NCBI RefSeq assembly: GCF_021134715.1
Contig: NC_060028.1
Span: 1,448,501 to 1,512,500 of the forward strand
DNA: 64,000 nt
Source of the DNA: Daphnia pulex
Taxonomy: Eukaryota > Arthropoda > Branchiopoda > Diplostraca > Daphniidae
Direction: 5' to 3'
Made by a program: the position numbers and the translations under genes. How positions within the stretch are numbered: position 1 is the stretch's first letter; each line of letters begins with the position of its first letter. A model generated the notes under the pieces. That model had not been told where the DNA came from and searched no databases. It worked only from the letters and a program-made list of their open reading frames with translations. Of the stretch, positions 38,538-63,138 are shown one piece after another.

Positions 38538-41500
38538 TTAATCTTCATCGCGCCATCCAATCATGTTACCGGATGTCGCACCAACTTCAGGGTCTTCAGC
38601 AATCGGCGACAGCAGGCCGTCGCCTTCGTCATCATCGGCCGCCAGGTTTTCACCGCCATCCTTTCCATCTTCGCTAAACAGCGACTCCTTATTCTTGATT
38701 TTACTGGTAATGTCGGCCATTTGACGCAGCTTCTTCAAACTTTCAATCCGCTCCTTGAAGCCGAGACGTTTCTCCTGTTGCTCGGCGTCGATGATGAGGT
38801 CGATGTACTGCGGAGTCGAGAATGGATTCGGGCGGAGGGCGATCTCGTCCAGCCGCCGGATGCAGCGTGAAACCGTATTGACACGCTCCAGCACGGCCTT
38901 TTCGTTGTCGTCGAGATCCTTCTGCAGGATCTGGATCAGTTCGTGAGCCGTCAATTTCCTCTTCAGTTCCGCCTCGTATTTCTGCTTGATGGCGTTGGAT
39001 GAAGTGGCCTGCTGCTCGCTGACATACTCCCACTTGTACGGCTGGTTGGCATGCATGTTCCAGATGCAATTCTCCGGACAAACGCGGCAACTGCGAATTG
39101 ATCTAGGCATGCCATGATCCATGGCAGCACAATCAACTTTGTCGTCGTCGTTCTTGTACGCACACGGGTTATGACATGTGATGTAACATTTGTTGCAATT
39201 GGTTAAATATTGACCGGCTGGAATGTCCACTTTCTTGGGCACCGTTACTTCCACAACTATCTCGACATTTTCGTTGGCGTCGATTTGCGCTTGACAATTC
39301 GAGATCATTTGCTTCGTCTTCCGCATTTCTTCCATCTTGGACAAGCCGATTTTGATGAGCGGTTGGAGTCCGTCCACGGTGGCTTCCAGTCGCTTCCGCT
39401 CGTCTAAAACTTGTTTCGTTAGAGAAAGAGATTTGGTTTTCATTTTTCCCAGGCCGATAAAGAAAAGCTGGAAATTGTTCATGCCCATCTGCCAGAAGAA
39501 TCTGTTAAATTTGTCGACCGTGTATGTTGTGTTTGGACCGATTCCGGACTCGCGGCTGGAACAAAAGAAGCCAGAATTATTAAATTTGTGGTGAAGCGGC
39601 CTGCCAGTGTTGTCATCCGTCGGACAGGGAAGATCAGCCTCGGTGATGGCGCTCAAGATGGGCGGCACTTGGCTGTCGGCGAACGTCAATAAGAAATTAA
39701 TGTTCTCCTTGATGTCGTTACCGAAGATGGAAAGCACTGAATCAAAAATGTAAATTTGTGTGGGCGTCAACCGGGGCAAAGAGGCTTGCGCCACGAAACC
39801 AACCACGTCCAGCTCTTGAATTCCGCCCCTTTCTTCAAAAAATTTACGGACCATTTCGGTGATTTCTTGGTCCCTTTTGAGGCCTTTAGTGTCGCCGTAA
39901 CCGGGTGTGTCAACGATCGTAAGAGAATATGGAACCCGGAATCCCTCAACGTGATGTATGTCGTAGGCCGTGATGCGGCTGGTCTGACTGTCAACTTGGG
40001 AGCGGCCGGCTGTCTGCTCTTCAATCAACTGGAAGCGGAAGGTATCCTCCCATTGGACGTCAAAAATGAAATTAATCATACCGTTGATTAGTGTCGTTTT
40101 GCCGGAACCGGTTGCGCCCATCACCAAAATCGTTCTGTGCTGCATCTTCCCTTTGTGCAGGGCATCAGCTCTACCGAAGGCGAAGCGATCGGCCGTTGCT
40201 GCTGGCCCGGATAACTTGGTGAGCGGAACAGCAAATACATCCATCCCGTTGCGGTTGACAATTTTCTTGCATTTCTTCACGATCGTTTCGGCAAAACGCA
40301 TCTCATTGACTTCCGTTGTGAATCGGACGCTTGCACTTTGTCCACTTTCATCCTGGCCGTCAACGGCTACAACGATGACGAAATAAGTCGTGTTGGGCTG
40401 GAGTTCTTGTAAACGGCATCCGGTTTCTCCGACTTCCACTTCGCGAGCAGACGAAGGGGTTTGGCCGTCTCGCCAAAAACAAACGCGATACGATAAGCTT
40501 CCGGCATGAAAAGGAGCTCTCCAGGACAGCTCACAAGTGCTCTTGGTAACCAAATCCACTTCTAATCCAGTGGGGGGCTGCAACAGAAGTTTCTTCGCCC
40601 GTTGGGAAGGCTCTGCGGATGCTGATGCCCCCTGACGGCTGTCGGATATGCATAAATTTCCAGTCATCCAGTCCAGGTCGTCGCTAAGATCGGAATCGCT
40701 TAGATTAATAACGCCCAGTGCAGTCTCGGTGTCAATGACGTCACTGAACTCGCTGCGTCCTATGCAAGTGTCGGCGGCCACTCGAATTTCCAGCTCTGGT
40801 CCTCCACTGTTGTAGTTGAGGATCATTTGTTTCTCTCCGGACTTGGCCGTCTTCTGTTGACTCCAATGGTCGGAACTGTTCATCGGTCGAAACTCGACGC
40901 AAAAGTGACACGGATAACCTAAATCTTCATAGTCCCACGACAAAATAATGGATGGCGTAGTCTTCTTATTGGGTTTGGCGGGAGCGAGACGAATTTTCAA
41001 ATCAGTCGGGGGGACGGGCAGCTGGTCCAGGTTGTCCTTGAGTAGATTATCAGCTTCGTAGACGGAATAGCGACAGCCATCTTGACCTGGTTCTCCGGAA
41101 GTGATGTAAAACTGGACTTGATTCAACAAATGTTTGTTTTTCTCGACGTGATTGGCAAATTGCCGGATCTTGTCCATCACCTGTTTTGTCCTACGTGGAC
41201 CCATGTGCCACGGAAGTCTCTCTTCATCAATTTGATCATCTTCATCATCCGTGTCATCCTCAACTGCCACCAATTTGCTATAGTTTTCACAGTAGTATTT
41301 CATTTCTTCTAGGATCTCGTTGGCTTTTCCATCCAACGACGGAATAGTCAGCACCAAGGCGTATTTCTTTTCAAACGAATCGGCCAGTTTCTTTTCCAGC
41401 TGTTGTTTCCCGGATAAAAATAAAATTCCGTTGATGCCGGATATTTTACCGACCATCTCCGACTCGGAAACTTTGAAGCGGAGCCAACGTTCTAGTCGAA

Positions 41501-42887
41501 TTGGTTTGAACAGCCCGTGACTCTCGGCGATGCTGTTGACTCTTTCGACTTCGTCGTCATCACCATCGTCACTTTCCCTGGACCTAATGACGCCATTCTT
41601 CAGACTTTCCATCAGGAGATGTTTGTAGTCATTCAAAACGTCCAGGAAAGATTTCAGCGATGCTCGGTTGATTTTCTTGGCAGATGAGGAGGCTCGAATG
41701 GCTTCCGCTTTGTTCCGGATTTCTTCCAATTGAAGCCAGTTCCGGCACATTCGAGTTGTCACTTCGGAGTCGACATCGCGGAATCCAAATGACCGCCGTA
41801 ATCTTTCATCGGAAAGTTTCAAAATGAATTTCACCGGGCAGAGAAGGACTGTGATGGGGATAGCTTTGCTCTTGTTTTCTACATCTTCTTTGATTTGTCG
41901 TATCATTTTCAGGCAATGTGCGTAGACTTCAATGACGTTACACTCTCGAACAGCTAAAGATTGGAGGTCGGAGTAAAACCGACATTTCAAACGAGTGAGC
42001 TGGGCTTTTTCTTCTTTGGTGAACTGCTCCTTGAAATCAGGTAATTGGGCGTCAAAGTCGATGTCGCCTAATGCGTTCTCTAGTTTCGTTGCCAATTTTC
42101 CTATATTTTCTTCGGCTTCCTCGTGAGCTTCTTCGTCGGCTTCGTGGCTGCCAAGATCCTGGCTCAGGACGCAATAGGCTTCAGCTCCGTAGACGACCCC
42201 TACGACGACATGAGTGGCTTTTGGCAACTCCATTTCGGCATCAATTCTGTCAGGCAGACGTAAAGGGCTCATCTGTTGGAGAAGAGTTTGCACATCCAGA
42301 CGCTCCTTCCTGGACTTTGTGCGACACACAAGAGTTTGGGTGACTTGTGACGGGCTCGATGGATCGTTCAGGTAGTTGCTGGCTCCGCTGAATTTGTTGA
42401 TGAGACCAGTCACGATGCTGGCCTGAAGATGGTCGTCAAGACCCATGTGCTGCCACTTGTTACTAAAATTTGAATCGGGACGAATCAAGTTTATTTTGAA
42501 GCCGGTAGTGACATCAGTGGCATTCGCGAATTTGGATGAATCCCACCACAGTCGACAATCTAAAATACAAATGCATCTGCGTTATACTCGGCACTAAAAA
42601 TAACAAGTAAGAAAACATTTTAAAAATGTAGGGAAGATTGAAAGAGTTAAGTTACTCGGTATTTGAATTTAAGCAAATGAGAAAACACTTTTCTTAATCA
42701 TGGCTTGTATCACGAATTCTAAACTAAACTAAGCAGTGTGTTTTTTTTTAAATTCCGAAAGAAAATTTATAAAGATGACAAGAAATTATAATTTACTTGT
42801 AAGAATGTTATCAGTGTGATAATCATACAGATCTCCCATTTGAAAACGACGTCCCATCGCGGCCATCTTGGTAAAGTTATCTTCCAT
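38538..42887 (-). CDS. SNTX-like / FN3 / AIG1-type GTPase protein B
   Basis: Two exons (42887-42797, 91 nt; 42559-38538) give 1370 aa. Exon 1 has the signature MGRRFQMGDLYDYHTDNI; exon 2 opens with LWWDSSKF, as SNTX proteins have LWD here. The stonustoxin-like core is clear: ATHVVVGVVYGAEAYC, LKCRFYSDLQ, and ITVLLCPVKF against MKVWLVPLKKF in stonustoxin. It continues with thioredoxin-like sequence and two FN3 domains (about residues 520-760). The GTPase follows with GATGSGKTT and DTPGYGDTKG, then a coiled region and a cysteine cluster C-x2-C-x3-C-x3-C ... C-x2-C-x3-C-x4-H. It is the best-preserved full architecture in the window. A and B lie in tandem, and B is divergent from C across 640 bp. 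Role inferred: GTP-regulated pore-type effector in innate defence. Confidence 0.82.
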
Positions 42888-43527: not shown

Positions 43528-45655
43528 ATGGGTTCCCATCAAATTCGGTTATCTGCGCTTGGACGCGACGTGCAAGTTGGAAATGTTTATAACTATTATT
43601 CCGACGACATATTCAATTGTAAGTTCACCTACGTAATAAAGTGTTTATTTTTCATCAAGTGCTGATATTTATATCGTCTGCTTGTTTTTATTTATTACAT
43701 GATTTATCTTAAGCAAATCTTTTACAACGCTTATACAATAGTTGTGTATGTATTTAGCCACATATTTCGTTGACAAATCGTTTGTTGTGTCGATTTTCAA
43801 CAGGCAGAGTCATAGTGCCCCAGGAATCCATATCAATCAACAAGAAATTACCTGAAACAGCTAAGTGGTTTCATCTGCCTCAATCCATCCCTTTGAAGTA
43901 TGAACTCTACGAAGCCTTATGCATCAATTCGCACCTGCGCATCAGCATTGAAAACAAATTTGTGGACTTGAGCCAACTTTGGTTCGGTGATTTTCTGGAA
44001 TCAAACCAAGCAGCAGAAGAAGACAACAATGGAGCTCAAGTCAATTTCGTTTTCCGAGTCTGCCGACAAATCGAAGCTCTTTGTCCAAAATTCATCGACT
44101 CGAAACTGAACGAATACCAGTTCAGTGGCGGTTTAGTAACTCATTTGGTGGAGCAGGTTATCTACGGGGCCGAATTTATCTGTTCGCTGCAAAGAACCAT
44201 CGATCGCCAGCACGAAACGAAGGAGAAAGCGGAAAGAAACCTATACTTGGCAGCCGAAGAATACTTCAATATGATTTTCGGTCGGAACTCCGTTAGTCCA
44301 GATTTACCTGCAGCTTTAGACAAGGTTCAATGTAAAATCCTAAGCAGCCTCAATCCTGGCAAAGAAGTTGATGGATCTTTCCAGCAATCCATTCAGTATC
44401 TTATTGATGCGATAAGTTTTGATAAGGAAGACAGTCACTGGAGACCTGTTGAAATCACTTTACGAAATATCCCGGAACAAATGGAAGCTCGACGTCGGTT
44501 AGAAATGGAGAATGATGTCATCTGGAGATGCGATATGCGTGAAGTCACGTTTGATCGGATTTTGGATTTTGGAGCTGCTGCATTTAATGATCCTCATTTT
44601 AAAATATTTCCTCAATTCAACATTGTTATATCCCAGTTCTCTTGTTTGGTAGAACCACTTATGCGGAAAATTCAGAGACTTCACGAGACATTAATAACGA
44701 CGACTAATCCCGAACGAAACCTTGAAGAAAGACAAATCTCCAACTTACTCCGTGATATGTTGTATTGGATGTTTAACCTACGTTCTGAAATGGACAAGAT
44801 TTTTTGGCTAATCGAAGGCATCCAATTGAAAATGTTGGATTTGGCAAAGATTGAGATGCTTACGGCAACCAACAAACTAAATCGAGCCAAAGTGTTTGTG
44901 TTGAGAGCCGAATTCTATCCAAGTCCGCTAATTGAGTCCGTTTATGCATATATTGGTAATCCTTCGGCAATAATTGCCCCTCTTCCGGTCCTTCCGATAC
45001 TTTCGGGTGACAAAAGGCAACTCCAAAAAATTAGAGAAGAATTACAACAATTTTCTGCAGAAGCGCAAGCGAATTCTTTGCTGGATCAAGAGGAGCTGCG
45101 ACATCGCTACTATATTGGAATAACTTCTGAATATCCGCATTTGACTGACGGTACAATAATAACTTTTGGAGACTACAAGAAAGAAAATGATTCCCCGAGG
45201 AAACAACAACAAGGTAACCCCAATAATGTTCAATTCCCTAATAATTGCTCTAATTGTATAATTTTTTGTTTCAGGAACTGGAATTAAGCAAGAAAGACCA
45301 TTTTCAGGTGCTGAAGTGAATCTTTCTACCGAAGTTTGTCTATCCATGGAGCAAAGGTGTGAACATGATTAAGTTTTAGATTTTGCGTATTTATAACCTG
45401 TTTAATTTGTCTGTGTGTATTTTGAACAGAAACAACTCGATCGTTACGTCGCCGGAGTCGAGCGCCGACACGAAAGTCGTTCATCATCAGTCGTTGAAAT
45501 CGCCTCAAATGAATCAGGCTAGTGGACTGAACCAACCGGATGATGAAGGCCGTCTGGTTGACGAGGAAGATACGACATCTGAATTTTTAGTCGACTGCAT
45601 GCAAGCCCATTGTAGTGTAGGAGTTTTGCGTCGTTCTTCGTTCCCGAGATTTTAA
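43528..45655 (+). CDS. SNTX-like protein C, GTPase part lost
   Basis: Four exons (43528-43618, 43804-45213, 45275-45356, 45430-45655) give 602 aa. Exon 1 (91 nt) has SALGRDVQVGNVYNYYSDDI. Exon 2 carries the perforin-like and thioredoxin-like parts (THLVEQVIYGAEFICS, FVLRAEFYPSPLIES, YYIGITSEYPHL). The last exon follows D closely up to MQAHCSVG, then jumps to sequence matching D's extreme C-terminal tail (VLRRSSFPRF against VFRPSSFTRS) and its 3' flank. The whole GTPase and cysteine region was deleted in frame, leaving an intact short protein. Reading through the 61-bp intron after exon 2 also stays open briefly. Confidence 0.75.
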
Positions 45656-46746: not shown

Positions 46747-49700
46747 ATGGGTTCCCATCAAATTCGGTTATCTGCGCTTGGACGTGACGTGCAAGTCGGA
46801 AACCTTTACAATTACTATTCTGATGCCATATCCATTTGTAAGTTCACGTAGATAAAGTCTTATTTTTCATCTAGTAGTGTTCAGCTGATCTTATTCTGTC
46901 TGCTTGTCTTTATTTATTGTTTGACTTATCTTATTCGAACCTAAATTACAGTATTACATTGCTTGCACTAGTAAGTGGTCATATGTGTGTGTATATTTAG
47001 CTACATATATTCACAATTAACACAATTTGTTGTTCGATTTTGAACAGGCAATGTCGGAGTTCCCCAGGAATCCATATCAATCACCAAGAAATTGACACCC
47101 GAAACAGAGTGGTTTTATCTGCATCAACTGCCCCATTTGAAGTACGAAGCCCTAGGCATCAATTCACATCTGCACAACAGCATTAAGAAAAAATCTGTGG
47201 ACTTGAGTCAACTTTGGTTCGGCAATTTTCTGGAATCAAGCCAAGCAGCAGAAGAAGACATCAGTGTAGCTCGAGTCACTTTCTTCTTCCGAGTCCACCA
47301 ACGAATCGAAGTTCTTTGTCCAAAATTCATCGACTGGAAACTCAACGAATACCAGATCCAAAGTGGTGGTGTAGCAACTCATTTGGTGGAGCAGGTTGTC
47401 TACGGGGCCGAATTTATCTGTTCCCTACAAAGAACCATCGATCGCCAGCACGAAACGAAGGAGAACGTCGAAGGAAGACTCAACTGGGCAGCCAAAGATT
47501 ACTTCAATCAGATTTTCGGTCGGAATTCCGCTAATCCAGATTTACCTGCATCATTAAACAAAGTGGAATGTCAAATCCTCAGCAGCCTCGATCCTGGTAA
47601 TGAACTAGAGGGATCTTTCCAGCAATCCATTCAATATCTCATGGATGCGATGAGTTTTTATAAGGAAGACAGTCATTGGAGACCCATCGAAATCACTTTA
47701 AGAAATATCCCGGAACAAATGGTAGCTCGACTTCGATTAGATATGGAGAACGATTTCAAGTTTAAATGTGATGCGCATGTAGTCATGTTTAATTGGATCT
47801 CAAATGAAAGTAAGAACATGTGTGCCTACTTTGAAATGCTTCCTTGTTTCCAAAGCGTTTTGTGGCAGTTCAATTATTTGCTGGGGCCACTTGGGCAGAA
47901 AATTTGGAGATTTCATGAAGCACTTAACACGACCACTACCCCCGAACAAATCTTTATGGTCTCCAACTTACTCCGTGGTATGATGTATTGGCTGATTCAA
48001 CGACGTTCTGAAATGGACAAGATTTCTTGGCTAATCGAAGGCACCCAATTGAAAATGGAGACGTTTACGACATCAACCAAACAAAATCGCGAAAAAGTAT
48101 TTGTCTTGAGAGCCGAATTCTATCCAGATCAACTAATTCAGTTCATTTATACATTTACTGATAATCCTTCGGCAATAAGTGCCCCTCTTCCGAACCTTCC
48201 GATACTTATGGCTGACAAAGAGCGACTCAGAAATATTAGGGAAGAATTGCAGAAATTTTCCAAAGAAGCGCAATCGAGTTTTTTGCTGGATCAAGAGGAG
48301 CGCCATCGCTACTATATTGGAATAACTTCTGAATATCCGCATTTGACTGACGGTACAATAATAACTTTTGGAGACTACAAGAAAGAAAATGATTCCCCGA
48401 GGAAACAACAGCGAGGTAAACCCAATAATGTTTAATTCCTTAATGAGTGCTCTAATTGTATAATTTTTTGTTTCAGGATCTGGAGTTATGCAAAAAAGTA
48501 GATCACTTTCAGGCTCTGAAATAAATCCTTCTGCCGGATTTTGTCGATCAACTGAGCAAAGGTGTGACACTTAAAACCATGATTAACTTTTAGTTTTCTC
48601 GCATTTTTAATAACCTGCATCTTAATTTGCCGGCATTTTGAACAGAGACTATTCGATCAAACTGAAGCACATTGTATCTATTGCATCGCCGTCGGAGTCT
48701 AGGGCTGACATGATTTTGTCTACTGAGCAAAGGTATAACACTTACAACAACTTTTAGATTTTGCACAATTTTTAACCTGCATAATTTGTGTGTATTTTGA
48801 ACAGAAACAACTCGATCGTAACGTCACCGCAGTCGAGCGCTGACACGAGGGTCGTTCATTACCTGTCGACGAAATCGCCTAAAATGAAGCAAGCAAATCA
48901 ACTAAAACGACTGAATGAAGAAGACGGACGGGTTGAAGAGGAAGATACGAAATCTGGATCTTTAGTCGACTGTATGCAAGCCCATTGTAGTGTAGGAGAC
49001 AAACTGGACGAGAATGAGAACTGCATCACAGAAGAATCAGTTGACGACGTTGGTAATCAATCTGTCCAATTCTGGAACAGTACAATGTCAATCTCCCACC
49101 GTGAATTCCGTCATCATGAAACTTCCATAGACATGGACTGCGCTACTGAAACAACTCCGCCCGACGACATTGAAAATGATGACCAGCTCAACAACCAAAG
49201 AATTGCCGAATTTTTCGCCGATGAGAAAAACCGGTGCGCCAAACTAATCAAGAATGGACAACCAAATGTTTATTTGCTGAACGCTACGGACACGTCGGTG
49301 AGTGAAGATCTCCGGTGGTTTGACGTCGGTAGGCCTGTCCGGCCGACCTGTGGTATGAAAAATCACAAATTAATCATCTTGATGGGCGCCACTGGATGCG
49401 GTAAGAGCACCCTGATAAACGGAATGGTCAACTACATCCTCGGCGTCAAATGGAACGATCCGTTCCGCTTCAAATGTGTCCGGGAAGACGAAACGACCGC
49501 CCGGAACCAGGCGATTAGCCAAACGAGTTCAGTAACAGCCTACACTATTCGCCACCGTAATGGAATGGCAGTTCCTTATTCCATCACGATCATTGACACG
49601 CCCGGCTACGGAGACACGAGAGGAGTGAAAAGAGACAAGGAAATCACGCGCAACATTCAACAATTTCTGACTCAACAGGAAAGTCGAGTGGAAGAAATTC

Positions 49701-50872
49701 ACGCCGCCTGTTTTGTGGCCGCTTCCGGCGACAGCCGATTAACCGCCACCCAGAAATACATAATCGACTCTGCTCTTTCTATTTTTGGCAAGGACGTCAA
49801 GGAGAACATTCGTTTGTTGGTGACATTTGCAGACAATGCTGATCCTCCCGTCGTCGAGGCCTGCCGTGCAGGCAATTTCCCCGTGACATCCGCGTCGGCC
49901 GGAATTATTTTCAGCAAATTCAACAGCTCCGTCCTCTACGCCAGCAACGAACAACAAGAAGAAGATTTGTGTTTCGACGAATTATTCTGGGACATGGGCC
50001 AGGAGAATTTTGGCAAATTTTTCAGCATGCTGGAAGGAATGAACGGCCGGAACCTGGAATCCACACGAGAAGTCATCCAGCGTCGTACTTTGCTGGAAGA
50101 GTCATTGAAAGACATCGAGCAAGAACTGGAAGTCTGTCTGTTTAACATCGAAAACATCGAAACATTCCAAAGGAAAATGAAGGAATGCGGCCAGAAGATG
50201 GAGTCCAGCAAGAATTTCGTCTTTGAAAATAAGGAAGTATGTTATAGTCGCGTACCCTGCGAAAGCGACTGGTATGCCTACAACTGTCTCATGTGCCAAA
50301 AGACTTGCGAGTCGCCTATCCGCTCTACCAACCCGGCGAAACTTCGGAAAAATAAAGGACAGTGTCCACATCTGGCATGCCCCCACGATCCTTCTGAACA
50401 CGATTACGAAAACGTTGAAATCCGCCGAACTGTAAAGAAAACTAAAAAGACTCTCCTGGATATGAAGGCTAAATTTGAGTCGAGTTCCAACGAGAAAATG
50501 ACAAACGAACGACTTTTGGCTGATTGTTCGGAAAATCTGGAAATGGCCAAAGCCAAAGTGTTCAGCTTGCTCGATCAGGTGGGCGAGAATGTTCGTTCAC
50601 TGGAGTCGACAGCTCTTCGTTCCAACACTCTGAGTCCAACCGATTACTTGAGTCTGATGAGGAGTCGCGTTGCGGAAGAACAAAAGCCCGGCTACCAAAT
50701 TCGTATGGAGACCCTATCGGAATTACAGCAAAGTTTGGCCGACGATGAAGCGGCCAAGTCCCAATGGTTTTACCCCATCCAGACGTCTCAACTTGGAATT
50801 CGGGGCAGCAGCAGAGGATCGCGCCGCCGTGTTTTTCGTCCTTCTTCATTCACGAGATCTAGCAGCAAATGA
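46747..50872 (+). CDS. SNTX-like / AIG1-type GTPase protein D
   Basis: Exons are 46747-46837 (91 nt), 47048-48415, 48477-48561, an optional cassette 48646-48732 (87 nt), and 48805-50872. The predicted protein is 1232 aa, or 1203 aa without the cassette; both keep frame. The SNTX part has THLVEQVVYGAEFICS and the thioredoxin-like segment. A disordered acidic linker replaces FN3. The GTPase has GATGCGKST, DTPGYGDTRG and TFADNAD. The C-terminal helices carry a cysteine cluster (NCLMCQKTCESP ... CPHLACPHD) and end in an Arg/Ser-rich tail. C and D are tandem duplicates (unit about 3.2 kb), nearly identical in places. The cassette looks like a hybrid of the exons on either side. Confidence 0.8.
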
Positions 50873-59982: not shown

Positions 59983-62900
59983 TTACATCTTCAAACTCTC
60001 CAGTCCATCTTCAAATCCGAGTTCTTTTAGCTGCTGTTCGGCGTCGTAGAGGACGTCGAAAACTTTTTGAGTCAAAAACGAGTTTCCGTGAAGGGCGATC
60101 TTGTTCAGCTGCTGGATGCATCGCCAGGTCGATTGGAAATGCTCCAGCATGATCGTTCCGTTTTCGACGAGGTCATTTTGCAGCACTTTCACCAATTCTT
60201 GCCCATTCGATCTGATTTTTTTCCACTTCATTTCAGCTTCGTATCTCTGATTGGCGGGGTTCGTGAAGTCCGTCGGCTCCTTTTTCACGTACACCCATCG
60301 GTAGGGCTGATTGGAGTGCATGCTCCAGCTGCATTTCCCAGGGCAAACGGAGCAGCTTTCCAAAACGATCGCCTCGGTGACGTCTGGGGAATAAACCTTG
60401 TCTTTCTTGACGAACGAATTGTGGCACGTGACAAAGCACTGATTGCAATTGATCATGTACTGGCCGGGCGGAAGTTCCACTTTTTGCGTCAATTCGACAG
60501 GGAAAGTTTCTTCGACTTCTGCGGTCGGAGGGATCTGCGCTTGGCAGAAAGTGATCATTTTCTTCGTTTTGTTGATTTCTTCCATCTTCACCGAAACGGT
60601 TTCAATGAGCGACTGGAGTCCATCCAGCATTGCTTCCATGTGTTTCCTCTCTTCTAAAACTTGTCTGGTGAGCGACAGCGATTTCGTTTCCTTCTTGGCT
60701 AGTGCGACGAAGAAACGCTGGATACCATCCTGCCATTTGCAATTATCGCCGAAATAATCCGTCGGCATCCAGCAGTTGTTGTTGTCTTTGACATCGTTGC
60801 CGAAGATAGACAGTAAGTAGTGTTGATTGCCGTCGGCCTCGACATGACAGATCATGTCCAGCTCTTGGACGCCTCCCTCGTCTTCGAAAAACTCGAGGAA
60901 CATTTTGGCTATATTCTGGTCTCTGAAAAGTTGAGAGTCATCGGAGTTGGCGTCGTAGGTGGGCATGGTGATGATTGTCAACGAATAGGTGACACGGAAT
61001 CCGCATGAGTGGTGGATGTCGTAGACCTTGATGCAGTTGCTCTGGCTGGCCGGCTCCTCCTCGACCAGCTGAAAACGATAGCTGTCATTCAGGTCGACGT
61101 CAAAGATGAAGTTGATGATCCCGTTAATAAATTTCGCCTGACTCGAACTGTTGGCACCCAACACCAGGACCGTCCGGTGCTCCGCGTGAGCATCGATTTC
61201 ACCGAAAACCATTCGCTGGAACGTTGACGTTGGCTCGATCGACTTCGTCACTGGAACATCGTACACATCTATCCCTTTTTGGTTGCCTATCTTGTTGGAT
61301 CGTTTGATTTGCTTCTCGGCGAAACGAACATCTTTGATCAAATCAGAGAATGTTACTGAGATATCGAAGGTGTCTTCTTCAACTGGTTGACGGCGTGAAA
61401 GGGGTCCCCATGGTCTACCATTTTTGAACGAGCCTCCTTAAAATAATAATAATGAAACTACGTAAATATATGTGGAAAACACAATAAATTCTGCATGAAA
61501 GTGAACAAAAATAACAACCGTTTCCGGCCTGTGGGTAGTTGAAAACATTGGTATCAGACGGTACTATCAATTCTTGCACAAAAGTTTCCAGAGAGCATTC
61601 CATTTCCGGCAATTCTTCGGTCTCATCACTCGCTGGATTGGTGTCCAGAGGCTCTACTATTTAAGACATAAACGAATTAGAATCTTAGTCATTAATATAA
61701 CGTTTTTCGGGTAAGGTCTGTAGTCATACCAACTAAAGGCACTTCATTTTCAGTATTTAGTAACGGCACTTGACTTTCAACATCAAGTAACGGCGGAGGC
61801 CCCAAAGATTCCAAATCAATCCTGTTTAACTCTGGAAAATCGGCATCATTAAATGTTTTTCATTTCTTTTGATAAAAATAATTACCTGATAATTGAACTG
61901 CCGACGAGTTACTTTCGGTGACGGAATCAATTAATTCCTGAATAGTTTCGCTGGTTTCACTGACGGATTTGCAAGGGACCGGAGCTCTTCGAGCTGCCCG
62001 TGCTTTTCTTCCTGGCCTTTTTGATTTGGCAACTGGCTTTTTGCACTTCTCCTTATGTCGTCGATTTGCGAACCAGACACGCACTACTTCAGTTTTCATC
62101 CGGAGAGATTCGGCCAGAGAAGTTATCGTCGCGAGTGATGGCTTGTGTTCCATGTAGAAGTGCTTCTCCAGCGCATCCTTGAGCGCTCCTTCGATCAGCG
62201 TCCGCTTCCTAGCAGGAGGGCTTGGCCAACTGGCGGAAGCAGTTTTAGCAGATGATGCCATCGATTCCTGCGCACGGTTTGGTTCTAGCGAATATTCCAT
62301 TTGAGACTGTTGACCTGAATGACTAGTTGGATTCGTGCCTAAATTTGTATTACATTTCGAAAGAAATAAAGATGCTAGAAATTAAAAAAAAAAGTCACTG
62401 TGCAGTAACAGGAGTTGCGAATGAGATATGTAAATACCATACCAACTATAGAAGTCCCATCGTGTATGTTGAATGTTCCGTCAGGGTGAAATGGTTCGAT
62501 AACAATTCCGACTGACCCTGCTTCAATAAATATAATTAGTAACGATTTTGTATCATCAATCATATGGCTTACCATTACTAGTAGACGAATTTCCAATTTC
62601 TTGTCGTGACTGTTTTGCATGCTTGTTTTCTAAAGTCATAACCGATGATGATTGTGATTCGGATGACGAGTCCGTGGTAGGACTTTCAGGACGCGATCTC
62701 TTTTGGCGCAGGCGGTAACCTGTTAATTGAGCAGTAGATGAGTTGTCCTGACTGACAGAATCAAAAAGCTTCTTAATAGAATCAGTGGATCCATAGATTA
62801 TTTCAGCACATTCCGGAATTTGTTTGGCTAACCGTGTCGTACTTCGCAAAGATACTTCATTACTACTCAGATCATCATCTAATAGTTTAGGTTTTGCAAC

Positions 62901-63138
62901 AAAAATTGAATAAAAACATTGTTTGATTATATAACTACCAAAAGTTAAGCAGGTTACAGTGACATGCAATTAAAAAGTTGTAATGGTTTCAAATTACCAC
63001 TTGAAGAGTTGTGAATATTTTTATGCCTCTGACGAGAAGTGGAGTGAAACAGAATGGGAGAATACTGGTCTTTTTCCTGTTTAGTACAAATATAGTAAGA
63101 AGAAAATATGCAATAAAAACCTGAAAATAGCTTACCAT
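59983..63138 (-). CDS. POU-type homeodomain fused to a GTPase-like pseudo-domain (gene E)
   Basis: Hand-placed exons are 63138-63136 (ATG), 63076-62998, 62878-62573, 62520-62443, 62338-61886, 61831-61730, 61656-61519 and 61436-59983. They total 2613 nt (870 aa plus stop); all introns after the second exon are phase 1. Residues about 199-255 are a POU-class homeodomain: [18 protein letters not shown], then KPSLATIT, then [15 protein letters not shown], with Ala where POU proteins have Cys before NRR. No POU-specific domain was found. A basic tail follows. From about residue 390 the sequence is paralogous to gene B after its FN3 domains, but the P-loop reads [10 protein letters not shown] (no GKS/T) and the DTPG motif is TMPTYD. 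About 50 residues including G4 are missing, so it should not bind GTP. The coiled region and most of the cysteine cluster (C-x2-C-x3-C ... C-x2-C-x3-C-x4-H) remain. Two separate genes is the main alternative. Confidence 0.7.

Follow-up and report, generated by a model that had tools for sequence, protein, structure and literature searches.

A locus on the minus strand of the Daphnia pulex genome (133 Mb, 13 contigs), at positions 59983..63138 of a window of 64,000 nucleotides (C12 positions 1448501-1512500), encodes a POU-type homeodomain joined in frame to a GTPase-like part of the AIG1/GIMAP kind that has lost its G1 and G3 motifs. A sequence-only reading of the window had linked eight exons by seven splice junctions into 871 codons. 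All seven junctions indeed keep frame, and the introns, which are 54 to 119 bases long, are all GT...AG; the codon count was off by one or two, as the joined exons comprise 2610 bases, or 869 codons plus stop. Introns 2 to 7 are in phase 1 without exception. Retention would introduce in-frame stops in five of the seven introns and a frame shift in the remaining two. The features of the locus, all on the minus strand, are as follows:

63136..63138, minus: exon 1, start codon only; the N-terminal residues of the D. pulicaria orthologue are the same
62998..63076, minus: exon 2 (splice-consensus model)
62573..62878, minus: exon 3, phase 1-1 (splice-consensus model)
62443..62517, minus: exon 4, phase 1-1 linker (splice-consensus model)
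61886..62338, minus: exon 5, phase 1-1, homeodomain followed by a basic stretch (splice model and Pfam)
62046..62210, minus: POU-type homeodomain with W48, F49, A50, N51, R53 (Pfam, PDB comparison, alignment)
61730..61831, minus: exon 6, phase 1-1 linker (splice-consensus model)
61519..61656, minus: exon 7, phase 1-1 linker (splice-consensus model)
59983..61436, minus: exon 8, dead GTPase-like part, 483 complete residues plus stop (splice model, alignment)
61129..61158, minus: lost P-loop, G1 (alignment with active paralogues)
60958..60969, minus: lost G3 site, TMPT replacing DTPG (alignment with active paralogues)
60730..60780, minus: zone of a loss of about 50 residues, including the G4-like TFAD of active paralogues (alignment)
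60535..60675, minus: first long helix of a predicted helical hairpin (structure prediction)
60265..60501, minus: cysteine-rich insert separating the two long helices (sequence and prediction)
60097..60258, minus: second long helix of the predicted helical hairpin (structure prediction)

A portion of exon 3 is similar to the region behind the exon 5 homeodomain (29% over 59 residues, with E 2e-6 when just these two sequences are compared), and exon 3 is perhaps the remnant of a unit whose own homeodomain was lost.

The fusion and its paralogues

A search of protein collections with the window model returned nine proteins. The top one, isoform X2 of D. pulicaria LOC124349460, also has 869 residues, of which 863 are the same and six differ, and agrees with the model at all junctions. 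Numbered isoforms in an annotation usually imply support from RNA reads. In the D. pulex genome, the pairing of a homeodomain with a dead GTPase-like part occurs at eight loci, always with the homeodomain 5' and on the same strand. These loci account for 10 of the 123 listed genome matches to PF00046 (150 of 175 candidates scored), and only about 0.04 homeodomain/GTPase pairs would be expected by chance, given rounded inputs of 123 homeodomains, an assumed 40 GTPase loci, and a distance of 2 kb. Four of the loci are tandem paralogues on C7 that carry both parts in a single unspliced frame:

C7:11285897-11287429
C7:11288753-11290267
C7:11292186-11293703
C7:11294832-11296238

At the other four loci (the window, C12:1547438-1550630, C8:7559005-7561204, and C7:11394693-11397007), a phase-1 consensus donor and a phase-1 consensus acceptor fit the join. 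Further GT and AG dinucleotides there lie in other phases, and the join at the C8 and C7:11394k loci was judged from the phases of donor and acceptor alone. The model of C12:1547438-1550630, about 35 kb past the window, has 958 residues in frame, with six exons and five junctions that are all in phase 1, and contains three Pfam homeodomain stretches (C50, G50, and A50) upstream of the dead GTPase-like exon.

In a second protein search, PF00046 was found on 13 of 66 hits, including three from D. pulex and one from D. carinata, and on none of the named fish proteins among them; identical copies of two of the D. pulex database proteins are encoded on C7. The co-occurrence of a homeodomain with an AIG1-like part in other Daphnia, for which the sequence-only reading had suggested a search, is thus on record, as proteins with both parts exist for D. 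pulicaria, D. pulex, and D. carinata. Within the reach of sequence comparison, the annotated D. pulicaria orthologue and the one-frame C7 paralogues confirm that the fusion is real and not a one-off. They also largely remove the doubt that had been attached to a single transcript. Two separate genes were considered as an explanation and are ruled out by the orthologue, the one-frame paralogues, the matching phases, and the 958-residue model.

Homeodomain and GTPase-like part

The homeodomain is recognised by Pfam, and its POU-type assignment holds in the PDB comparison. PF00046 (E 2.4e-14, residues 198-252, 53.3 bits against a cut-off of 22.9) is the sole family above the Pfam cut-off in the 869-residue protein. 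Among 28 PDB sequences matched at E 1e-6, the 22 best are POU proteins and the remaining six double homeobox proteins; the closest solved relatives belong to POU class 3, led by 7xrc and 2xsd. A POU-specific domain (PF00157) was not found in the protein by Pfam, and the seven PF00157 matches of the genome fall into four loci (C12:1103k, C12:3783k, C7:8154-8155k, and C12:9556k). The homeodomain shares 55% identity (45 to 67% across the family) with that of an intronless gene at C12:1102572-1104281, which we take to be vvl-like. In every family row, this homeodomain is nearer than the second Daphnia POU homeodomain, in a comparison that covers two of the four POU loci, as the homeodomains of C12:3783k and C12:9556k are not readable whole.

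All 10 homeodomains of the family share R5, L16, F20, P26, L34, A35, W48, F49, and N51. The window protein keeps W48, F49, N51, and R53, which are DNA-contact residues of homeodomains. Variability within positions 42-57 is concentrated at 42, 47, 50, and 54 (entropies 2.52, 2.05, 2.45, and 1.69), with 0.92 or less at the rest; positions 47, 50, and 54 contact bases in known homeodomains. At position 50, the 10 copies have A, A, G, C, C, C, S, S, Y, and K, and the residue is C in both readable Daphnia POU homeodomains and in the three PDB alignments compared. It looks as if specificity was changed and the DNA-binding scaffold preserved.

The GTPase-like part has the paraseptin G-domain fold, which places it with AIG1/GIMAP, and it was correctly described earlier as a dead module of this kind: the P-loop GxxxxGKS/T (G1) is absent, and so is DxxG (G3), which is replaced by TMPT. 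Relative to the active paralogues, about 50 residues are gone from the G4 region, including TFAD, which we infer to be the G4 equivalent. The active GTPases that had been placed 10-30 kb away do lie about 9, 17, and 26 kb off, with intact motifs:

48785..50872, plus: GATGCGKS and DTPG, 695-residue frame; AIG1, Septin, and MMR_HSR1 above the Pfam cut-off
38538..42581, minus: GATGSGKT and DTPG, 1347-residue frame; fn3 and Septin above, AIG1 and SNTX-type below the cut-off
29613..33560, minus: GATGSGKS and DTPG, 1315-residue frame; fn3, Septin, AIG1, and MMR_HSR1 above the cut-off

The plus-strand frames between them, at 43758-45287 (509 residues) and 47044-48435 (463 residues), have no Pfam match at E up to 10. 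In the 869-residue protein, AIG1, Septin, and MMR_HSR1 likewise gave no Pfam match at E up to 10, although most matches with E beyond about 0.1 are removed by the filters of HMMER, and NCBIfam returned solely matches below the cut-off. Foldseek alone found no PDB match at E <=0.001. The PDB sequence search with the alignment of the G part yielded homeodomain chains only (33 rows, E 0.01), owing to the homeodomain-bearing rows of the alignment. No phage record matched the window protein.

The GTPase-like exon is under constraint. Between the window and C12:1548k, synonymous divergence (dS) is 1.24 and nonsynonymous divergence (dN) 0.28 over 478 codons, with the reservation that dS values above 1 are imprecise. 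The nonsynonymous proportion of differences (pN) is well under the synonymous proportion (pS) in 28 of 28 pairs, and dN/dS ranges from 0.19 to 0.41 in 24 of them; it is undefined in the remaining four, where dS is saturated. Because the C7 rows were read from stop to stop, they also cover the homeodomain and some bases ahead of the start. All eight loci have open frames, of 469 to 560 residues. A pseudogene is ruled out for this exon by the dN/dS of about 0.22 and the open frames.

Where this constraint falls was compared between 16 rows of the homeodomain clade and 11 active rows. Conservation is lower in the homeodomain clade at the P-loop (0.47 vs 0.94) and G3 (0.58 vs 0.92), and higher at beta2-beta3 (0.79 vs 0.73) and beta4 (0.86 vs 0.71); the cysteine-rich insert is relaxed (0.43 vs 0.69). 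Conservation has apparently moved off the nucleotide pocket, suggesting that the tail is kept for a role other than GTP binding and that the canonical G interface is not its likeliest binding face. As the surface that is kept, the sheet is better supported by these values than the helical hairpin.

The dead clade also includes three sister loci without a homeodomain (C12:987671-990781, C12:1438511-1441055, and C10:15450642-15453131), whose upstream frames by eye contain an apparently common cysteine/histidine-rich module; a similar coiled-coil-like linker is visible at both C12 loci (988k and 1440k). The module has no Pfam match. The label FLYWCH, suggested by its appearance, was dropped for this reason, and the three FLYWCH matches of the genome lie elsewhere. 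D. sinensis GHT06_013859, the sole hit of a search for this arrangement, is annotated as one protein with the N-terminal module, the linker, and the dead G part. Because the sister copies carry this different N-terminal module, the dead tail may be a reusable partner for different heads.

Among further observations on these relatives, GHT06_013859 runs on into a cytochrome P450 (PF00067), which is probably a misjoin. A further, shortened and perhaps decayed copy of the N-terminal module lies, together with a cysteine-rich remnant, beside C12:988k at C12:992604-993500. D. carinata LOC130685830 combines a dead GTPase-like tail with a stretch that by eye is AT-hook-like, without a Pfam match, where the homeodomain would be.

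Proposed function and alternatives

Given the fusion, the family, the motif losses, the constraint, and the residue pattern established above, we consider it moderately probable that the locus is a real, conserved gene of a lineage-specific Daphnia family and that its product is a DNA-bound adaptor whose interaction module works independently of nucleotide. In this mechanism, the POU-type homeodomain would bind DNA alone, without a POU-specific domain, and the GTPase-like part would neither bind nor hydrolyse nucleotide. Protein interaction or dimerisation would rely on a fixed module made up of its beta-sheet and of the helical hairpin at its C-terminus. The protein would be a sequence-specific regulator that lacks a nucleotide switch. 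Copies would have spread via duplication, the symmetric phase-1 exons would allow the homeodomain to multiply (one to three per gene), and divergence at the base-contacting positions 47, 50, and 54 would direct paralogues to different sites. We infer nuclear action and a direction of regulation along with DNA binding, partner binding, and the loss of nucleotide binding itself. Several points weigh against this explanation. The long helices are not more conserved in the homeodomain clade than in the active rows (0.59 vs 0.68 and 0.59 vs 0.58), and among the 53 positions from 5 to 57, position 50 ranks 3rd in entropy, position 47 only 14th, and position 54 only 22nd. Within positions 43-57, the three highest variabilities are those of 47, 50, and 54 (odds of 1 in 455), and within 42-57 all three rank among the four highest (odds of 4 in 560); these odds were computed post hoc and by hand, for a small set of related sequences and for positions chosen for their base contacts in known homeodomains.

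An alternative already raised by the sequence-only reading is a DNA-bound partner or decoy, in which the dead G domain would use the shared G interface to bind an active paralogue and so tether it to chromatin or keep it out of action. Paralogues with intact motifs lie within the same window, and passages in the literature describe septin pseudoGTPases that are retained as subunits of hetero-oligomers (PMC10731463) and the promotion of GTP hydrolysis by GIMAP2 through GIMAP7 (PMC8201404). However, by analogy with septins and GIMAPs, the pairing face would comprise the nucleotide-pocket motifs and the G4 region, and these are lost or least conserved in the homeodomain clade. A decoy acting via the usual G interface is therefore less supported and unlikely in our view, and a partner role via other surfaces is conceivable.

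It is also rather unlikely that the protein is a competitor of the POU class 3 factor vvl that, lacking a POU-specific domain itself, occupies the sites of vvl and dampens it. The absence of PF00157 would suit such a role, as would the finding that every family row is nearer to the vvl-like homeodomain than to the other Daphnia POU homeodomain readable whole. In 7 of 10 copies, however, the residue at position 50 is not the C found in vvl, and a shift of the sites would be expected. That the homeodomain is a passenger and function resides in the G-like tail only, or that the family is decaying, would agree with the dead GTPase motifs and with D. carinata LOC130685830, which lacks a homeodomain; the invariant DNA-contact residues, the range of dN/dS in the pairs with defined dS, and the open frames at all loci make this quite improbable. 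The joining of two adjacent genes in error is highly improbable: although the exons in the window were joined at consensus splice sites, the annotated orthologue, the one-frame paralogues, and the matching phases speak against it.

Beyond the adaptor mechanism favoured here, the family might tentatively be seen as a new, duplicating class of Daphnia homeodomain regulators that use dead immune-type GTPase tails as a single nucleotide-independent assembly module. Positions 47, 50, and 54 would diversify on a fixed scaffold, homeodomains would be multiplied by symmetric exons, and the tail would be reused with different heads, such as the cysteine/histidine-rich module of the sister copies. Homeodomain classes are mostly old and common to animals.

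Relation to known proteins

The homeodomain of the window protein is like that of POU class 3 factors (vvl, Brn2/POU3F2, Oct-6/POU3F1), but the protein lacks their POU-specific domain, carries A at position 50, where theirs is C, and is fused to a GTPase-like part. It differs from the AIG1/GIMAP/Toc34/septin (paraseptin) GTPases in the loss of G1, G3, and the G4 region, and from the long active paralogues in having an upstream homeodomain instead of an fn3-bearing N-terminal part. Members of the same family, which are on record as automatic predictions, are D. pulicaria LOC124349460, D. pulex DAPPUDRAFT_234300, LOC124198733, and LOC124198736, and D. carinata LOC132087724, which are named merely uncharacterized, hypothetical, or homeobox domain-containing protein.

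Septin pseudoGTPases, as portrayed in parts of Hussain et al. 2023 (PMC10731463), have likewise lost GTPase activity in a related fold, sometimes with changes in the nucleotide pocket; for the window protein, the motifs point to such a loss. They are subunits of septin oligomers, and those parts mention no DNA-binding domain, whereas the window protein has a homeodomain. The pairing of a homeodomain with a dead GTPase, of which the sequence-only reading knew no described case, was indeed not found described among the matches listed in a literature search that had most subscription journals outside its reach. Term look-ups gave neither Daphnia nor GTPase in the main text of a crustacean homeobox survey (PMC5968366) or in a POU survey (PMC4245813). 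Homeodomain regulators with an added domain and pseudoGTPases are known already; it is their combination and the pattern of change that were not found described. Reports of gene disruption and of RNA interference exist for Daphnia (PMC4239399 and PMC4228505). If the proposed function is true, the family would be a tractable case of a new regulator class arising, with a dead enzyme reused as a scaffold. Elsewhere in the genome, a single frame of 2387 residues (C3:9246484-9249603) contains four homeodomain matches and is, we presume, perhaps a zfh-type gene.
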